Assembly: GCA_027064425.1 (NCBI GenBank) | Contig: JAMOPO010000052.1 | Coordinates: 62,001-126,000, forward strand | Origin: Methanobacteriota archaeon | GTDB taxonomy: Archaea > JAADCQ01 > Methanopyri > Methanopyrales > Methanopyraceae | Length of the DNA: 64,000 nt | Direction: 5' to 3' | Part shown: piece by piece, positions 8,991-45,406 of the stretch | How positions within the stretch are numbered: position 1 is the first letter of the stretch | Layout: each line of letters opens with the position of its first letter | Position numbers and translations under genes: made by a program | The notes under the pieces: model-generated | Database searches by the model: none | What the model was told of the DNA's origin: nothing | What the model saw: only the letters and a program-made list of their open reading frames with translations

Positions 8991-10010
8991 TCAGACGCGC
9001 GTCCCCGGGATCTCCCGACCGTACTCGCGCAGCAGCTCGCGCATCAGCGAGCGCACGTCCTCCAGGAGCCTCCTGGCCGCCTCCTCATCCCTCTCGACGG
9101 CTAGGCGGGGTAGGACGTCGTACCCTAAATCGTCGACTCGGTCGTCGATCTCGGAGTACTCGGACAGGACCGCGTGCAACTGCGCGAGCCGTTCCGTCCG
9201 CTCAACCCGGTTCAGCGTCCCGTGGACGTACGATCTCAGCGCGCTCTCAAGGTACATGAGCAGCCGGTACGTGAGGTCGCGGACGACGTCGCCCTCGTCC
9301 CGCGGTCCCTCCGGCACCCCGCCCCGGAACACCCGGCTCAGCTCCAGCCCCAGCCTCTCCTCCACCTCCCCCGCGTCCCACCTCGGGGTCTCCGTCTCGA
9401 CCAGGTACTCCAGGCACTCCCGTGGAGACGCCACCCGCTCCACCATGAGCGAGCAGGCCCGGCCCGTGAGCGGGTTGTATCCCACCCGCTCGATGAACCG
9501 GTGCACTCCGTAGGGCCGGATGGGGCACGTGTAGTCCTCGTCGAACCATCCGCATTCCGAGACGATCCGCCGCACGTCCTCCCACGTCCACCGGCGCAGC
9601 GCCGGGTACCGGACCATCGTCACGCCGGGGGGGTATGGGTGGGTCACCCGCCGCCCGTACTTGCCTCGCAGCTCGTGGCCCGTGAGGACCGTGAGCAGCC
9701 CCAGCTGCTTGGCGCGTAGGCAGGCGGCGGTCAGGACCGTCCTCGCGCACTTGGTGCAGATGGGTAGACCGCGCCGGAGGGCTCGGCGGAACCACTCTCG
9801 AAGCCGAACGCGGACGACCTCGTGGCGGAGGCCCAGCCGCTCCGCGCACCTCCTGGCGTTCTCCAGGCACACCTCGTCCAGGAACTCGTGAACGACCGTG
9901 ACCGCCGCCTCCAGACGCCATCGTTCGGAGGCGTGGAGGGCGGTCGCCACGCTGTCCCGGCCGCCGGAGAGCGCCACGCAGGCGGGGTTGCTGGGGCTAG
10001 TCGTGCGCAT
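8991..10010 (-). CDS. PP-loop (N-type ATP pyrophosphatase) protein
   Basis: 339 residues, ATG 10010, overlapping the end of gltX by 14 bases. The PP-loop SGGRDS lies near residue 16, followed by the alternating Rossmann-like fold; cysteines in ICTKCAR and DYTCPIRPYG suggest metal or thiol chemistry. This fold adenylates a carbonyl before nucleophilic attack, as in TtcA, CTU1, ThiI or TilS. It looks like a TtcA/CTU1-type enzyme by motif, but the long C-terminal helical half is unlike those. Its position between gltX and the wall ligases hints at a role in precursor activation or glutamate chemistry; unproven. Confidence 0.72.
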   Translation of the reverse strand: MRTTSPSNPACVALSGGRDSVATALHASERWRLEAAVTVVHEFLDEVCLENARRCAERLGLRHEVVRVRLREWFRRALRRGLPICTKCARTVLTAACLRAKQLGLLTVLTGHELRGKYGRRVTHPYPPGVTMVRYPALRRWTWEDVRRIVSECGWFDEDYTCPIRPYGVHRFIERVGYNPLTGRACSLMVERVASPRECLEYLVETETPRWDAGEVEERLGLELSRVFRGGVPEGPRDEGDVVRDLTYRLLMYLESALRSYVHGTLNRVERTERLAQLHAVLSEYSEIDDRVDDLGYDVLPRLAVERDEEAARRLLEDVRSLMRELLREYGREIPGTRV

Positions 10011-11715
10011 ACACGGCCCTCACACCGCTCGGCCCACACTCCTCGATCCGGGCGAAGTACAGCCGCTCGAACTGCACCGTGCGCCCCGGCTCCTCCCGCT
10101 CCACGTTGGCCTCGACGTAGCCCCTATCCACCGACCCGTCCGGCCGCAGCACCTCGCACGGGATCGCCTGATCCACCGGCACCCAGTGCACGATCCGCGC
10201 CCCCTCCCGTCGCGCGGTCCGGTAGTCCTCACTGTGGTACCGCCCCTGAACGACGCCGTCCCCCACCTCGACGATCTCCACGTTCACCGCGTTCATCAGC
10301 CGGATCAGGTCGCCCTCCTCCAGCTCCTCACCGTCCTCCCGGTCCAGCCAAACGCGACACTCACCGTCCTCCGGATGCAGCACGAGCGCGCGCTCGCCCC
10401 GATCCTTGTCCGGGTGCAACGGGACCGTGGCCGCGTGGGGCTCCTCTAGCCCCTCGATCCGGAGCTCCACCGGGTCCCGGACGAAGAAGTACCGGTTGGA
10501 CTTCGGGTCGATCAGGCGCCGGTTGCGCGAGTACAGCTGCTTCCAGCTGAAGGTCGCGTCCACGTCCGTCAGCCCGATCTCGAGGATCGTCTCACGGAGC
10601 GCCTCGGGCTCGATGCCCCGGCGCCGCAGCGCGCGCAACGTCGCCGTCCGCACGTCGTCCCAGCCCGTGAACTCACCCGACTTAATGCCCTCCTTGATCT
10701 TGGACGTGCTCAGGACGGAACCCTCAACCTTCAGGATCCCGTAGTGCACGTACTCCGGTGTCTCCCACCCCAGGTGCTCGAAGATGAACTCCTGCCGCCG
10801 CGTGTTCGACTCGTGGTCCTTGCCTCGCAGTACGTGAGTAACCTCCATGAAGTGGTCGTCCACGGCGACGGCGAAGTTCATCGTCGGCCAGACGAGGTAC
10901 CGGTCTCCCACCATCGGGTGCTCCTCCTCCACCACGCGGAACGCGACCCACTCGCGCACGGCCGGGTCGGGGTGGTCGACCTTCGTCTTGACCCGCACGA
11001 CCGCCTCGCCCTCCGAGAACGCCCCGTCCAGCATCTCCTCCCACAGCTCGAGGTTCTCCTCGGGCTCCCGAGACCGGCACGGACAGGCCTGTCCCCGGTC
11101 CCGGAGCCGGCGGAACTCGTCGGCGTCGCACGTGCAGACGTAGGCCCCGCCCCGCTCCAGCAGCTCCTCGGCCACCCGGTAGTAGAGCTCCATCCGGTTC
11201 GACTGCACGTACCGCTCGTCCACGCGCACGCCCAGCCACTCCAGGTCCTCCTCGATCATGTCGTACGCCTCCGGGTCCACCCGCCGCGGGTCCGTGTCCT
11301 CGAACCGCAGGATCAGCGTGCCGCCGTACCGCCGGGCGTACTCGTCGTTGAGCACCGCCGCCCGAGCGTGACCCAGGTGCAGCGGCCCGGACGGGTTGGG
11401 GGCGAACCGGAGCCGAACCTCGCCCTCCTTCGCCCCCGGGAGCGGCTTCAGCCCACCCTTCTCCCCCGCCTCCTCTTCCTCCTCCGCGCCGAGCTCCTCC
11501 AGCTCGCGCTTGATCTCCTCCAGGGACATCTTGTTGACTTCCTCGACCACCTCCCGGACGAGCTTGAGCACCTCCTTCGCCCGGTCCCGGTACTCCTCGT
11601 GCTCTCGCATGACCTTCTTCATGACCGCGTTGGGGTTGGCCTTGCCGTCGTACTTGGCCGCGTTCTCCAGCGCGTACCGCCGGATCACGTCCCGAAGCTC
11701 CTCCAGCTCGCTCAC
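9997..11715 (-). CDS. gltX: Glutamyl-tRNA synthetase (archaeal GluRS)
   Basis: 572-residue class I aminoacyl-tRNA synthetase charging tRNA-Glu (and tRNA-Gln for later amidation in archaea). The N-terminal extension of about 100 residues is archaeal-type; the HIGH motif is FAPNPSGPLHLGHAR and the KMSKS equivalent is LSTSK. The C-terminus is the beta-barrel GlnRS-like anticodon domain. GTG 11715 (SELEELRD...) is chosen because the frame upstream is unlike a protein. It heads the minus-strand operon that continues into pseudomurein synthesis, a wall polymer whose peptide contains glutamate. Confidence 0.92.
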   Translation of the reverse strand: MSELEELRDVIRRYALENAAKYDGKANPNAVMKKVMREHEEYRDRAKEVLKLVREVVEEVNKMSLEEIKRELEELGAEEEEEAGEKGGLKPLPGAKEGEVRLRFAPNPSGPLHLGHARAAVLNDEYARRYGGTLILRFEDTDPRRVDPEAYDMIEEDLEWLGVRVDERYVQSNRMELYYRVAEELLERGGAYVCTCDADEFRRLRDRGQACPCRSREPEENLELWEEMLDGAFSEGEAVVRVKTKVDHPDPAVREWVAFRVVEEEHPMVGDRYLVWPTMNFAVAVDDHFMEVTHVLRGKDHESNTRRQEFIFEHLGWETPEYVHYGILKVEGSVLSTSKIKEGIKSGEFTGWDDVRTATLRALRRRGIEPEALRETILEIGLTDVDATFSWKQLYSRNRRLIDPKSNRYFFVRDPVELRIEGLEEPHAATVPLHPDKDRGERALVLHPEDGECRVWLDREDGEELEEGDLIRLMNAVNVEIVEVGDGVVQGRYHSEDYRTARREGARIVHWVPVDQAIPCEVLRPDGSVDRGYVEANVEREEPGRTVQFERLYFARIEECGPSGVRAVYAHD

Positions 11716-11737
11716 GGGCGCTCCCCCCGCCCGCCCC

Positions 11738-11765
11738 CTTTTCGGTTGACAATAAGCCGTGAGCG
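11738..11765 (-). promoter_or_regulatory. Possible proximal promoter of gltX operon
   Basis: AT-rich island in a GC-rich gap. On the minus strand it reads GGCTTATTGTCAACCG, with a TATA-like centre about 25-30 bases before a purine-rich stretch preceding GTG 11715. Weak match; a second candidate lies further upstream at 11893-11905. Confidence 0.3.
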
Positions 11766-11843
11766 TGAGGGGACGGGGGTGTCCCCCGCCCTCCGGTCCC
11801 GAGATCATCGAGCGGCGACGGCCGCCTCACCCGGGAGACCCAG

Positions 11844-11876: not shown

Positions 11877-11937
11877 GCGCCCGCCCCCGATTCGGTTTAA
11901 TTAGTTCCCCGGCGCCCGCCCCACGCGCGGGGAAAGC

Positions 11938-11945
11938 TTTTTATA
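11938..11945 (+). promoter_or_regulatory. TATA box of the tRNA-Lys gene
   Basis: TTTTTATA preceded by a purine-rich GGAAAG that could serve as BRE. Its centre is about 34 bases before the mature tRNA 5' end, as expected for an archaeal promoter with a short 5' leader. Confidence 0.65.
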
Positions 11946-11975: not shown

Positions 11976-12053
11976 GGGCCGGCAGCTCAGTCTGGTCAGA
12001 GCGCGGGACTTTTAATCCCGTGGTCCCGGGTTCAAATCCCGGCCGGCCCACCA
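11976..12053 (+). tRNA. tRNA-Lys (anticodon TTT), encoded CCA, C at position 8
   Basis: Complete cloverleaf: acceptor GGGCCGG/CCGGCCC, D stem GCTC/GAGC, anticodon stem CGGGA/TCCCG with loop CTTTTAA, five-base variable region, T stem CCGGG/CCCGG with loop TTCAAAT, discriminator A and encoded CCA (12051-12053). Position 8, almost universally T in tRNA genes, is C (base 11983). In Methanopyrus this is corrected in the transcript by the CDAT8 deaminase (established knowledge). No intron. Confidence 0.97.
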
Positions 12054-12119
12054 GCCCGGATCGTTACGAGTCCCAAAACGTTTCGTGTGTAATAACGACC
12101 GCCCGGGGCGTGGGGGCGT

Positions 12120-13904
12120 CTACATCCGCTCGAGCGCCGGGATGCCGAGCAGGTTCATGACGTTCTCCATGACGATGGTGAACGCCTCGACCAGCTTCAG
12201 CCGCGCCTTTCGGACCTCCTCGTCCTCCGCGTGCAGCACCGGCACCTCCTCGTAGAACGTGTGGAACGCCCGGGCGAGCTCGTAGGCGTACTCCGCCAGG
12301 ATGTCCGGGCGCCGCTTCCGCACGCACTGAGCCACCTGCCGCGGGAACATGGACATCTTGAACACCAGCTCGAACGAGTGATCGTCGTCCAGGTAGGCCG
12401 CGTCAAACCGCTGCACCTCCTCGTCAGCCTGCCGCAGGATCGACTTAGCGCGCGTGTAGGCGTACTGGATGAACGGGCCGCCCCGGCGGAAGTCCAGGGC
12501 CTCGTCCCAGTCGAACTCTATGGGCTTGTTCGGGCTGACGCGGGCGATGGCGAACCGGACGGCCCCGATGGCCACGTTCTCCGCGATCTCCTCCCGCTCC
12601 TCCTCGTCCAGGTCCTCGGCGACGCCCGCCTCCTTCATCTTCTCCAGCGCGCGCTTCTTGGCCTCGTCCAGGAACTCGTCCAGGGTCACGTACCGGCCCT
12701 TCCGGGTCGACATCGAGCCCTCGGGCAGGTGGATGAACTCGTAGAAGATCACGTCCACGCGGTCCGGGTCCGCGTCCAGGATGTCGAGCACCGCCTTCAG
12801 CTGCTGCACGGCGAGCTTGTGGTCGGCCCCGAGCACGTCGATGACGAACGCGGCCCGCTTGAGCTTCCACAGGTGGTACGCGATGTCTCGCGTCGTGTAG
12901 AGGGTCGTACCGTCGCTCCGGGTGAGCACGAGCTCCTTGTCGATCCCGTAGTCCTCCAGGTCGAGGATCACGGCCCCGTCGTCGCGCTTCTCCGCCGCGC
13001 CCATGTCCACGAGCTTCTCGACGATCTCGACCGCATCCTCCACGAACTCGCTCTCGTACACGAACCGATCGTGGGCCACGCGGAGCCGCTCCAGGGTCTC
13101 GATGTGACCCTTTAGGCACTCCTCGACCACGACCTGGAACGCCTCCGCGATGCGCTCGGCCCGGGACTCCTCGTCCAGCAGGTACCGCTCGTAGGAGCGC
13201 AGGAAGCGCTCCACGACCTCCTCCAGCTCGGGGTCCTCCTCGATCTCCTTCGCGGCCTCCGCGTACAGCTCGCCGAAGAACTCGTCCGGCTTCTTGTCCT
13301 CTGGAACCTCCGGCCGCCCCTCCTTGATGTACTTCCAGGCGAGCATCGCGATCTGCTTGCCCATGTCGTTCACGTAGTACTGCACCTCAACGTCGTAGTT
13401 CGTGAACACCATGCACCGGGCCAGGATGTCGCCGATGATCGCGTTCCTGCCGTGGCCGATGTGGAGCGGGCCGTTCGGGTTCGCGCTGGTGTGCTCCAGG
13501 ATCGCGGGCCGACCCATGCCCAGGTCCAGCGAGCCGTACTCCTCCTCGTAATAGAAGATCGATCGCAGGACGAGGGCGGCGTACTGGGGCCGGTTCAGCC
13601 TGATGTTGATGTAACCCGGCCCGTCCACCCGGGCCTCGTCGACGAGGACGACCTCGTCCAGGTCCGACTCCTCGAGGATCGTCTCCGCGATCTTCCTGGG
13701 CTCCTCGCCCACCTCCTTCGCCAGCGAGAGGGCGACGGGCGTGGCCACGTCCACGTCCTCGACCGGTGGCTCCGGATCCACCGGCACCTCCACGGGCTCG
13801 TCGACGTCGTACGCCGAGGAGATGGCGTCGCGGATCGAGGTCCGGATCGTGCGGACGAGAACCGAGTACGGGTCGTGGGGTGGAGCCTCCTCTTCCTCCG
13901 CCAA
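12120..13904 (-). CDS. argS: Arginyl-tRNA synthetase
   Basis: 594-residue class I synthetase charging tRNA-Arg. N-terminal Add1-type domain, HIGH motif HTSANPNGPLHIGHGRN, KMSKS counterpart SMSTRKGRY, and the C-terminal all-helical DALR anticodon domain ending MNLLGIPALERM, a typical ArgS end. Start is TTG 13904 with GGGGTAGG upstream; the N-terminus is acidic and poorly constrained. It follows aRF1 by 14 bases in the same direction, so the two may be cotranscribed. Confidence 0.93.
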   Translation of the reverse strand: MAEEEEAPPHDPYSVLVRTIRTSIRDAISSAYDVDEPVEVPVDPEPPVEDVDVATPVALSLAKEVGEEPRKIAETILEESDLDEVVLVDEARVDGPGYINIRLNRPQYAALVLRSIFYYEEEYGSLDLGMGRPAILEHTSANPNGPLHIGHGRNAIIGDILARCMVFTNYDVEVQYYVNDMGKQIAMLAWKYIKEGRPEVPEDKKPDEFFGELYAEAAKEIEEDPELEEVVERFLRSYERYLLDEESRAERIAEAFQVVVEECLKGHIETLERLRVAHDRFVYESEFVEDAVEIVEKLVDMGAAEKRDDGAVILDLEDYGIDKELVLTRSDGTTLYTTRDIAYHLWKLKRAAFVIDVLGADHKLAVQQLKAVLDILDADPDRVDVIFYEFIHLPEGSMSTRKGRYVTLDEFLDEAKKRALEKMKEAGVAEDLDEEEREEIAENVAIGAVRFAIARVSPNKPIEFDWDEALDFRRGGPFIQYAYTRAKSILRQADEEVQRFDAAYLDDDHSFELVFKMSMFPRQVAQCVRKRRPDILAEYAYELARAFHTFYEEVPVLHAEDEEVRKARLKLVEAFTIVMENVMNLLGIPALERM

Positions 13905-31069: not shown

Positions 31070-32170
31070 ATGACCGAAGCGGTGGGCGACCGAGCCCGCG
31101 GGGGTGGCCCGTTGAAACCCGTCACCCTGGTCCGCCCCTCCGGCGAGACCACGGCCAAGAGCCCCGTCGTCCGCAAGACGCTGCTCGGCGAACTCGCCTC
31201 CCGGCTCGAGCGCCGGACGGGCGAGGTCGTGCGCGTGAAGGGACCCCGGCTGATCGTCCGCGGTCACCACGAGGAGGAGGCCGCGCGGGAGTTCGGGGTT
31301 GCCGGCGCCCTCCCGGGCTACGAGGTCAGGCCCAAGCCCTCGGTCATCTTAAAGGCATTTAGGCGGGTGCTCAAGGACAGCCCGAAGCGCGTGCGGCTCG
31401 ACGTACGGGTTCACCACGAGGGCATCTCCGGGAAGTCCCTCTACAGCTCCGCCAAGGAGGTGGCGGAGGCCTCCGGACACACCGTCACCAAGGGCGGCTC
31501 CCGCGTGCTCATCGAGGTCTACGACGACGTCGCCTACGTGTGCGGCCCGGAGGAGCCCGGTCCCGAGGGGCTCCCCGTCGGCACCCAGGGCAGCGCTCTG
31601 GTGCTCCTGTCCGGCGGCTTCGACAGCCCCGTGGCCGCCTGGATGGCCATGAGGAGGGGGCTCCAGTGCCGCGGCCTTCACTTCTTCGTGACCGAGTCCG
31701 AGCTCGAGGCGGCGGAGGAGAACGAGAAGATCCTCCGGAGATGGGACCCCGGGTTCGAGCTGCACGTCGACGAGTCGCACCGCGAGTTCCTGGAAACGGC
31801 CGAGGAGCGGCTCTCCGGCCGGCTCGAGCGCTACCTGTGCGTCGTCTGCAAGATGCGCATGATCGAGCGCGCCTGCGAGTGGGCCGAGAAGCTGGAGTGC
31901 GAGTGCTTGGTGACCGGCGACTCGTTGGGCCAGGTGGCGAGTCAGACGGTGTGGAACCTCCGGCTCGAGGAGCGAGTGGCGAACCTGCCGGTCTTCCGAC
32001 CACTTATAGGCATGAACAAGCCCGAGATAGTCCGGTACGGGCGCGACATCGGGGTGCCCCAGCGGGACGCGGGTCGATGCCCGTTCGTTCCCGACAAGCC
32101 GGTCGTCAAGCCCCGGGAGCGGGAGGCACTCCGCGCCTACCGCCGGGTGGTCCAGGGGGAAGGTCGGTAG
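31070..32170 (+). CDS. thiI: tRNA 4-thiouridine synthetase ThiI
   Basis: 366 residues. Thiolates U8 of tRNA. N-terminal ferredoxin-like and THUMP domains (about 30-170), then the PP-loop SGGFDSPVA and the archaeal CxxC pair in CVVCKMRM; no rhodanese domain, as in other methanogens. Start ATG 31070, or TTG 31112 after GGGGGTGG. Its target base is C8 in the tRNA-Lys gene here, so editing must precede thiolation. Confidence 0.92.
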   Translation: MTEAVGDRARGGGPLKPVTLVRPSGETTAKSPVVRKTLLGELASRLERRTGEVVRVKGPRLIVRGHHEEEAAREFGVAGALPGYEVRPKPSVILKAFRRVLKDSPKRVRLDVRVHHEGISGKSLYSSAKEVAEASGHTVTKGGSRVLIEVYDDVAYVCGPEEPGPEGLPVGTQGSALVLLSGGFDSPVAAWMAMRRGLQCRGLHFFVTESELEAAEENEKILRRWDPGFELHVDESHREFLETAEERLSGRLERYLCVVCKMRMIERACEWAEKLECECLVTGDSLGQVASQTVWNLRLEERVANLPVFRPLIGMNKPEIVRYGRDIGVPQRDAGRCPFVPDKPVVKPREREALRAYRRVVQGEGR

Positions 32171-38612: not shown

Positions 38613-38978
38613 GTGCGGTACTTCGAGAATATTACGGACCGGGAGCGCGCCATCTTCGAGGCCGGCATCACCCTCGGCGCGATCTATCATCAATTCTCCG
38701 GTACGCCGGTATCGCCGGAGACGGCGGACGAGGTGGCGCGGTGCATCGAGCGCGCCGCGGAGCTGCAGCCCTGCGTCGAGCGGGCCGAGGTGGACATCGA
38801 GGTGGAGGAGAACGACACCGACAACTACGGCGGGTACACCGAGGTCTCGGGCCGCAACCTCCGCGTTCGCCTGGTCACCAGGTGCGGGGACTGGGAGGCC
38901 GTGGCCCGGCTGGAGTTCGTCGAGGAGCTCAACTACCCGCTGATGTGGATCGAGGAGGTCAGGAGGGTGCGCGATTGA
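38613..38978 (+). CDS. mptD: Dihydroneopterin aldolase, archaeal MptD
   Basis: 121 residues from GTG 38613, preceded by AAGGGGG. Acts in methanopterin synthesis, cleaving 7,8-dihydroneopterin. The YFENITDRERAIFEAGITLGA start, YHQFSGTPVSP and ELQPCVERAEV match the archaeal family (formerly DUF372). Followed by a TTGA-coupled nucleotidyltransferase. Confidence 0.88.
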   Translation: MRYFENITDRERAIFEAGITLGAIYHQFSGTPVSPETADEVARCIERAAELQPCVERAEVDIEVEENDTDNYGGYTEVSGRNLRVRLVTRCGDWEAVARLEFVEELNYPLMWIEEVRRVRD

Positions 38979-40267
38979 CCGTCGTCGGCATCGCGGCGGA
39001 CTTCGATCCGCCCCACCGCGGGCACGCCTACCTCCTGGAGCGCGCCTCCGAGCTCGGGGACGAGGTGATCGTCTTCCTCAACGCGGACTACACCGCCCAC
39101 CACACCCCGCCGCTGCTGCCCTACGAGCTCCGCGCCGAGATCGCCCTCGAGCTGGGCGCCGACGACGTGCAGCCCGTGCGCGGGTACCACCAGCGCTTCC
39201 CCCTGGCCTACACGGTCCCGGTCCGCGTCGCCACCATGGCCGAGCACGGCGTGGACGTCATCCTGGACGCCGGCCCCAAGCGGAACCTGGAGGAGGTTCG
39301 ACACCACGCCGAGCGGGTCCTGAAGCGGGGTGACCTCTTCTCCATCCCCAAGCACGTGCCCGCACGGAACCTCGTCAGGTGGCTGGCCGCCGTCGAGATG
39401 GTCAACGAGCTGCTGGGCACGGAGGTGAGCCTGCGGATCGTCCCGGAGCTCCCCGGCCACTCCGGCCGGAAGATCCGCGCCACGCTCCGCCGCGCCGGGT
39501 ACTCACCGGACGCCCTGGACGACGTCAGGCGCCAGCTCCCGGACGAAACGTTCAGGAGACTGAAACGTTACCTGGCCGAGGAGCGGCCCCCGATCGCCCG
39601 CAGGGATCGGCTCCTCCGCGGCGTCAACGAGGCCCGCCCGGACCACATTTGTAGCATCGCCCACGTGAACACGCTGGCCGCCCGCGAGCTGCTGCGCGGT
39701 CGCCCCTTCCGCAGCGAGCGACAGCTCTGGGGAGCCCTGAGACGGGCGGGGTACGGGTCAGTCCTCACCCGACTCGCCCTCGCCAACCTGGAGTGCCGGG
39801 TGACCTCCGCGGAGCTCGCCCGAATCTCGCTGGAGTGGGTCGAGCAGGGCCTCGTCCCACCCGGTCAGAGCCCCGACCGCATGTACGAACGGGATTGGTT
39901 CGTCGCGCGCCTCTCCACCGCCGGCGTGCGGGCCCGGAAGGCCGACGAGCTGTTCCGGAGCACCGGCTCCTACGAGGAGGCCGCGGCCAAGGCCCGCGAG
40001 CGGTACGGCGTCGACCCGGGCCGCCCCAGAACCCTCGTCCGCATCGGCGCAGCCGACGCCCCGGACGGGACGTACCGCCCGGCCGTGGACGCCCGGGGCA
40101 CCTTCGGAGTGCTCCCGGACGACCGGTTCGTTCGGCTGGAGCTCACCGCCTTCGGGGCCACCCTGCTGCGCTACGTCATCGACGACCCGTTCGTCGAGGC
40201 CTGGGTCCGCGTGGAGGACACGGAGGCCTGGCTCGAGGTCTTCCCCGGGGGTCGCCTCAAAGGTTGA
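38975..40267 (+). CDS. HIGH-type nucleotidyltransferase, TmcAL-like
   Basis: 430 residues from TTG 38975 (TTGA overlap with mptD). The N-terminal half is a cytidylyltransferase-type fold: GIAADFDPPHRGHAYLLERA with the HxGH site, and a later PGHSGRKIRATLRR segment. It recalls the tRNA-Met cytidine acetate ligase family (TmcAL), but the C-terminal 200 residues, mostly helical, are not recognised. Substrate unknown. First of three genes downstream of mptD joined by TTGA overlaps. Confidence 0.68.
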   Translation: MTVVGIAADFDPPHRGHAYLLERASELGDEVIVFLNADYTAHHTPPLLPYELRAEIALELGADDVQPVRGYHQRFPLAYTVPVRVATMAEHGVDVILDAGPKRNLEEVRHHAERVLKRGDLFSIPKHVPARNLVRWLAAVEMVNELLGTEVSLRIVPELPGHSGRKIRATLRRAGYSPDALDDVRRQLPDETFRRLKRYLAEERPPIARRDRLLRGVNEARPDHICSIAHVNTLAARELLRGRPFRSERQLWGALRRAGYGSVLTRLALANLECRVTSAELARISLEWVEQGLVPPGQSPDRMYERDWFVARLSTAGVRARKADELFRSTGSYEEAAAKARERYGVDPGRPRTLVRIGAADAPDGTYRPAVDARGTFGVLPDDRFVRLELTAFGATLLRYVIDDPFVEAWVRVEDTEAWLEVFPGGRLKG

Positions 40268-45337: not shown

Positions 45338-45406
45338 ACGCCGCGGTGCCCCTCCCCGGCACCAATCGTTTCGAAATGCATAACGAAGGGGGAGGGCGGG
45401 ATCAGG

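Follow-up and report, generated by a model that had tools for sequence, protein, structure and literature searches.

A tRNA-Lys gene with C8 in a Methanopyrus species distinct from M. kandleri AV19 and the conservation of base 8 in tRNA genes of five Methanopyrus genomes

The stretch of Methanopyrus DNA analyzed in this study (64,000 nucleotides, referred to as the window) contains a single tRNA gene according to ARAGORN, a tRNA-Lys(ttt) gene (Table 1) that matched the Rfam tRNA family (RF00005) over positions 11976-12050 with a score of 70.2 bits and an E value of 2.7e-13. Its neighbors are encoded on the minus strand and consist of a Glu/Gln-type class I synthetase gene (9997-11808) on one side and the arginyl-tRNA synthetase gene (12120-13904) on the other. 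The acceptor stem (GGGCCGG/CCGGCCC) forms seven out of seven Watson-Crick pairs and the CCA end is encoded (12051-12053). Sequence, ARAGORN, Rfam and acceptor pairing agree with the preliminary description that this otherwise normal cloverleaf carries a C at base 8. A14, the partner with which U8 forms a contact in the tRNA fold (PMC3695527), is present.

Table 1. Features of the tRNA-Lys locus and related genes of the source genome (window positions unless a contig is named)
Feature	Position	Strand	Basis
Probable archaeal promoter, putative BRE/TATA-like GGAAAGCTTTTTATA, ~30 bases upstream of tRNA-Lys	11931-11945	+	by eye
tRNA-Lys(UUU) gene, intron-less, CCA encoded	11976-12053	+	ARAGORN, Rfam RF00005, sequence
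Base 8 = C, predicted C8-to-U8 deamination target	11983	+	sequence, acceptor-stem parsing
A14, conserved U8 partner in the tRNA fold	11989	+	sequence
Anticodon TTT	12011-12013	+	ARAGORN anticodon at position 36
Palindrome ATCGTTACGAGTCCCAAAACGTT, CGTTA-N9-TAACG type, one mismatch; 3' element common to Methanopyrus tRNA genes	12060-12082	+	five-genome scan; PMC5217627
ThiI-like paralogue with a PP-loop domain; possible U8 thiolase	31070-32170	+	Pfam, BLASTP
CDAT8 gene	contig C3, ~38726-39565	-	phmmer vs PDB 3g8q, domain matches
Second ThiI gene, PP-loop + THUMP + ThiI_fer	G000:C3:8756-9778	-	Pfam

The palindrome downstream of the gene is near universal behind tRNA genes in five Methanopyrus genomes. 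With up to two mismatches allowed it followed 145 of 147 tRNA genes, always with a spacer of 9 and usually beginning 6-11 bases past the CCA, while the upstream control yielded 4/145 at the same tolerance. In AV19, the element had been described for about half of the tRNA genes and a function in 3' processing was suggested (PMC5217627); a role in termination is possible. Another copy with one mismatch (ATCGTTTCGAAATGCATAACGAA) is located at 45365-45387 of the window, between two ORFs and with no tRNA call nearby, and may be due to chance.

For comparison within the genus, we analyzed the source genome (G000; 1.54 Mb in 57 contigs) together with four other Methanopyrus genomes, AV19 (1,694,969 bp) among them. 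tRNA genes were located by a T-arm pattern, the reversed control of which produced no hits, and base 8 was assigned once a script had paired the acceptor stems. The pattern located 34 tRNA genes in G000 and the same number in AV19. Among those of G000, 31 carried C8 and three T8; the script list itself contained 30 entries with C, as the two tRNA-Glu genes are identical, and the tRNA-Trp gene, which has a decoy within its intron, was set by eye. The same parser assigned C8 to 30 and T8 to four of the AV19 genes, exactly the published count of 30/34 (PMC3695527), which validates the method. A14 was present in every parsed gene. Base 8 was not C in any of 51 control tRNAs from 30 loci of six non-Methanopyrus archaeal genomes; 12 of these were begun one base early by ARAGORN, and the next base was T in every one. 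The search for further C8 genes proposed in the preliminary description was thus positive for most other tRNA genes of the genome. Methanopyrus has been described as the only known exception to the rule that tRNA genes carry T8 (PMC3695527), and the assignment of the window to this genus was supported by kinship, CDAT8 and the C8 pattern.

Two groups of genes required separate inspection. The initiator tRNA-Met gene (G000:C27) appeared as T8 with ARAGORN and Rfam, both of which start this gene and its orthologues about 5 bases late; the re-paired acceptor stem (AGCGGGG/CCCCGCT), which begins with A1-U72, places a C at base 8. The tRNA-Glu genes, of which G000 and AV19 possess two each, contain an extra D-loop insert in addition to an anticodon-loop intron. 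Genes with this insert, reported as a D-loop intron in AV19 (PMC3695527), fall below the Rfam threshold, and both G000 copies are C8.

The preliminary description had also called for a search for the C8 deaminase gene, and CDAT8 was found in this genome (Table 1). A single gene of G000 combined a weak deaminase match with a THUMP match, and its product matched M. kandleri CDAT8 (PDB 3g8q) over the whole chain (phmmer, E 3.7e-134). The C-terminal THUMP domain scored above the Pfam cut-off, whereas the deaminase-like region remained below it (19-21 bits vs 25); the identity of the gene is nevertheless settled because the match to 3g8q is full-length. The domain order described for CDAT8 is deaminase, ferredoxin-like and THUMP (PMC9957541). 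Each of the five Methanopyrus genomes contains the gene, and its HAE and PCxxC motifs do not vary among these species. In a five-way alignment the G000 protein shares 74% (AV19), 72%, 65% and 85% identity with the other four. That the Methanopyrus enzyme converts C8 to U8 in tRNAs, as the preliminary description stated, is published for M. kandleri AV19 (PMC3695527). Outside the genus, a pattern scan of 84,980 species, which may omit records near the window's own, returned only two Methanopyrus-like records, viral contigs contained no CDAT8, and 292 other archaea gave weak partial hits only. The out-of-genus hits that were read lacked a deaminase domain and represented ordinary THUMP or ThiI-like proteins. 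The collections searched thus give no support to a viral or broader origin of CDAT8.

If CDAT8 makes C8 the equivalent of T8, base 8 should drift. Among isoacceptor groups, base 8 was invariant in all 21 that are present in all five genomes and in 28 of the 29 present in four or more. As a yardstick, all-pyrimidine fourfold-degenerate columns from three neighboring protein genes of the same genomes were split between 12 invariant and 13 variable columns. At this rate, invariance of 21/21 groups would be expected by chance with a probability of ~2e-7, a value that derives from a small yardstick (25 columns, three genes) and concerns tRNA genes that are conserved throughout. Among other all-pyrimidine tRNA columns 12/483 vary, and tRNA genes evolve slowly overall. 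The sole change at base 8 was observed in tRNA-Thr(GGU), which is T8 in AV19 and C8 in G000 and two of the other genomes, G002 and G004. Most simply, the branch leading to AV19 lost its C8 here, which shows that such a loss is tolerated at least once.

The alternative to selection treats C8 as a by-product of neutral change, in which CDAT8 would equalize C8 and T8 and a GC-rich mutation bias would have driven most genes toward C (constructive neutral evolution); this concerns the reason for which C8 is kept and leaves the editing itself untouched. Third positions are indeed GC-rich (C 86 : T 19 at fourfold sites in G000), and the AV19 tRNA-Thr gene with T8 where three relatives have C8 is in line with such a process. 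Against this, the identity of base 8 is maintained gene by gene whereas one in two all-pyrimidine fourfold columns is variable, and the genes for tRNA-Gln and both tRNA-Pro were T8 in every genome where they were found, which is contrary to the bias. We consider neutrality unlikely on this evidence and infer from the comparison of sequences that selection maintains C8 and that CDAT8 has not turned base 8 into a neutral site that drifts freely.

The Gln and both Pro tRNAs have G9 plus C51-G63 in common, a combination that occurred in none of the 133 C8 genes. As single determinants of T8, neither G9, a GGGT D-stem nor C51-G63 explained the exceptions, which were set apart only by G9 and C51-G63 together. 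This combination may identify tRNAs that are not editable by CDAT8 or, as the sequences of Gln and Pro tRNAs are similar, it may reflect their shared ancestry. All 147 parsed genes carry G65. A model of secondary structure only, computed at 37 C and taking no account of tertiary contacts, base modifications or growth near 100 C, gave base 8 a mean pairing of 0.94 when it was C and a lower one of 0.67 when it was U. In this model C8 tended to pair with G65, which lengthened the acceptor helix at the expense of the T-stem. One speculative mechanism would be a folding brake, in which C8-G65 acts as an eighth acceptor pair that competes with C49-G65 until CDAT8 removes C8. C8 would then be selected as such, with the unedited C postponing folding or thiolation until end maturation is complete, and the Gln and Pro tRNAs, which would have to bypass this step, barred from C8. 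We regard this as a doubtful proposition, which the conservation of C8 or T8 per isoacceptor and the pairing prediction fit without proving it.

The tRNA-Lys gene most probably belongs to a Methanopyrus species other than AV19 and is a member of the known C8-to-U8 tRNA editing system, a reading to which we assign a probability of about 95%. Directly in hand are the C8 tRNA-Lys gene, 30 further C8 genes and an intact CDAT8 gene, and the same arrangement is present in the four other Methanopyrus genomes. In the proposed sequence of events, tRNA-Lys would be transcribed with C8 and its ends trimmed, after which the THUMP-type deaminase CDAT8 would bind the acceptor/CCA end and deaminate C8 to U8, and the resulting U8 would contact A14 as in a normally folded tRNA and provide a possible substrate for 4-thiolation. 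In AV19, RNA-Seq reads carry U8, and maturation proceeds from 3' and 5' trimming to modifications and editing and then to intron removal (PMC3695527). Expression, editing, its place in the order of maturation and the mature form of the tRNA are taken for this species from the published AV19 work and would apply here by orthology; likewise, the editing of tRNA-Lys, termed obligatory in the preliminary description, would follow from orthology and the published AV19 RNA-Seq data (PMC3695527).

It is very improbable that the mature tRNA retains a C8 that is tolerated at this position and needs no editing: while the A14 found in every gene would make a C8-A14 contact possible from sequence, the genome encodes an intact CDAT8 orthologue and the AV19 reads carry U8 (PMC3695527). 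A sequencing or assembly error or a tRNA-Lys pseudogene has a negligible probability, as the cloverleaf is intact, C8 is shared by 31/34 genes of the same genome, and this explanation is already refuted by the orthologous tRNA-Lys genes, which are C8 in four independent genomes.

Of the claim that the ThiI gene in the window modifies U8, the presence of a PP-loop ThiI domain stood (PF02568, E 4.1e-45). The gene is one of two paralogues, however, and had no Pfam match to THUMP or ThiI_fer, while the THUMP-bearing copy lies elsewhere in the genome (Table 1), which leaves the role in U8 modification unproved. BLASTP aligned the two paralogues over most of their length with 34% identity, including the N-terminal half of the window gene, and both score below the equivalog cut-off of NCBIfam TIGR00342 (264.5 bits), with 176.4 bits for the window gene and 239.9 for its paralogue. 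Each of the five Methanopyrus genomes has retained both paralogues. A TGA considered as a possible selenocysteine codon in the AV19 ThiI paralogue was dismissed, the translation containing no internal stop. From the chemistry of U8 thiolation it follows that editing of C8 tRNAs must come before thiolation, an order that has been noted previously (PMC3695527).

The co-occurrence of C8 and CDAT8 is a known rarity, published for AV19 and found here in another Methanopyrus species. The phenomenon and the enzyme are thus already described, and the comparative base 8 pattern across five genomes is what is added here. With base 8 assigned gene by gene, a curiosity of one genome becomes a comparative data set, which argues for selection on C8, reveals one C8 loss (tRNA-Thr of AV19) and names the tRNAs that are never C8.

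The closest known system is the C8-to-U8 editing by CDAT8 in M. kandleri AV19 (Randau et al. 2009, as cited in PMC9957541; PMC3695527; PDB 3G8Q). Both systems have ~90% C8 tRNA genes, an enzyme of the deaminase-ferredoxin-like-THUMP type, a C8 tRNA-Lys gene and T8 exceptions for Gln and Pro. They differ in the species, with CDAT8 proteins that are 74% identical, and in tRNA-Thr(GGU), the C8 of which leads to 31 C8 genes here compared to 30; editing was demonstrated experimentally in AV19 (PMC3695527) and is predicted here. TrcP of Vibrio cholerae (PMC9553926) likewise represents prokaryotic C-to-U editing of tRNA by a dedicated deaminase, but is a different enzyme and its product is pseudouridine. 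The tRNA uracil 4-sulfurtransferase ThiI (PMC4041423) acts on base 8 as well and shares the ferredoxin-like/THUMP module with CDAT8; in contrast to the latter it thiolates U8, would therefore follow CDAT8 on C8 tRNAs, and is represented by two paralogues in this genome.
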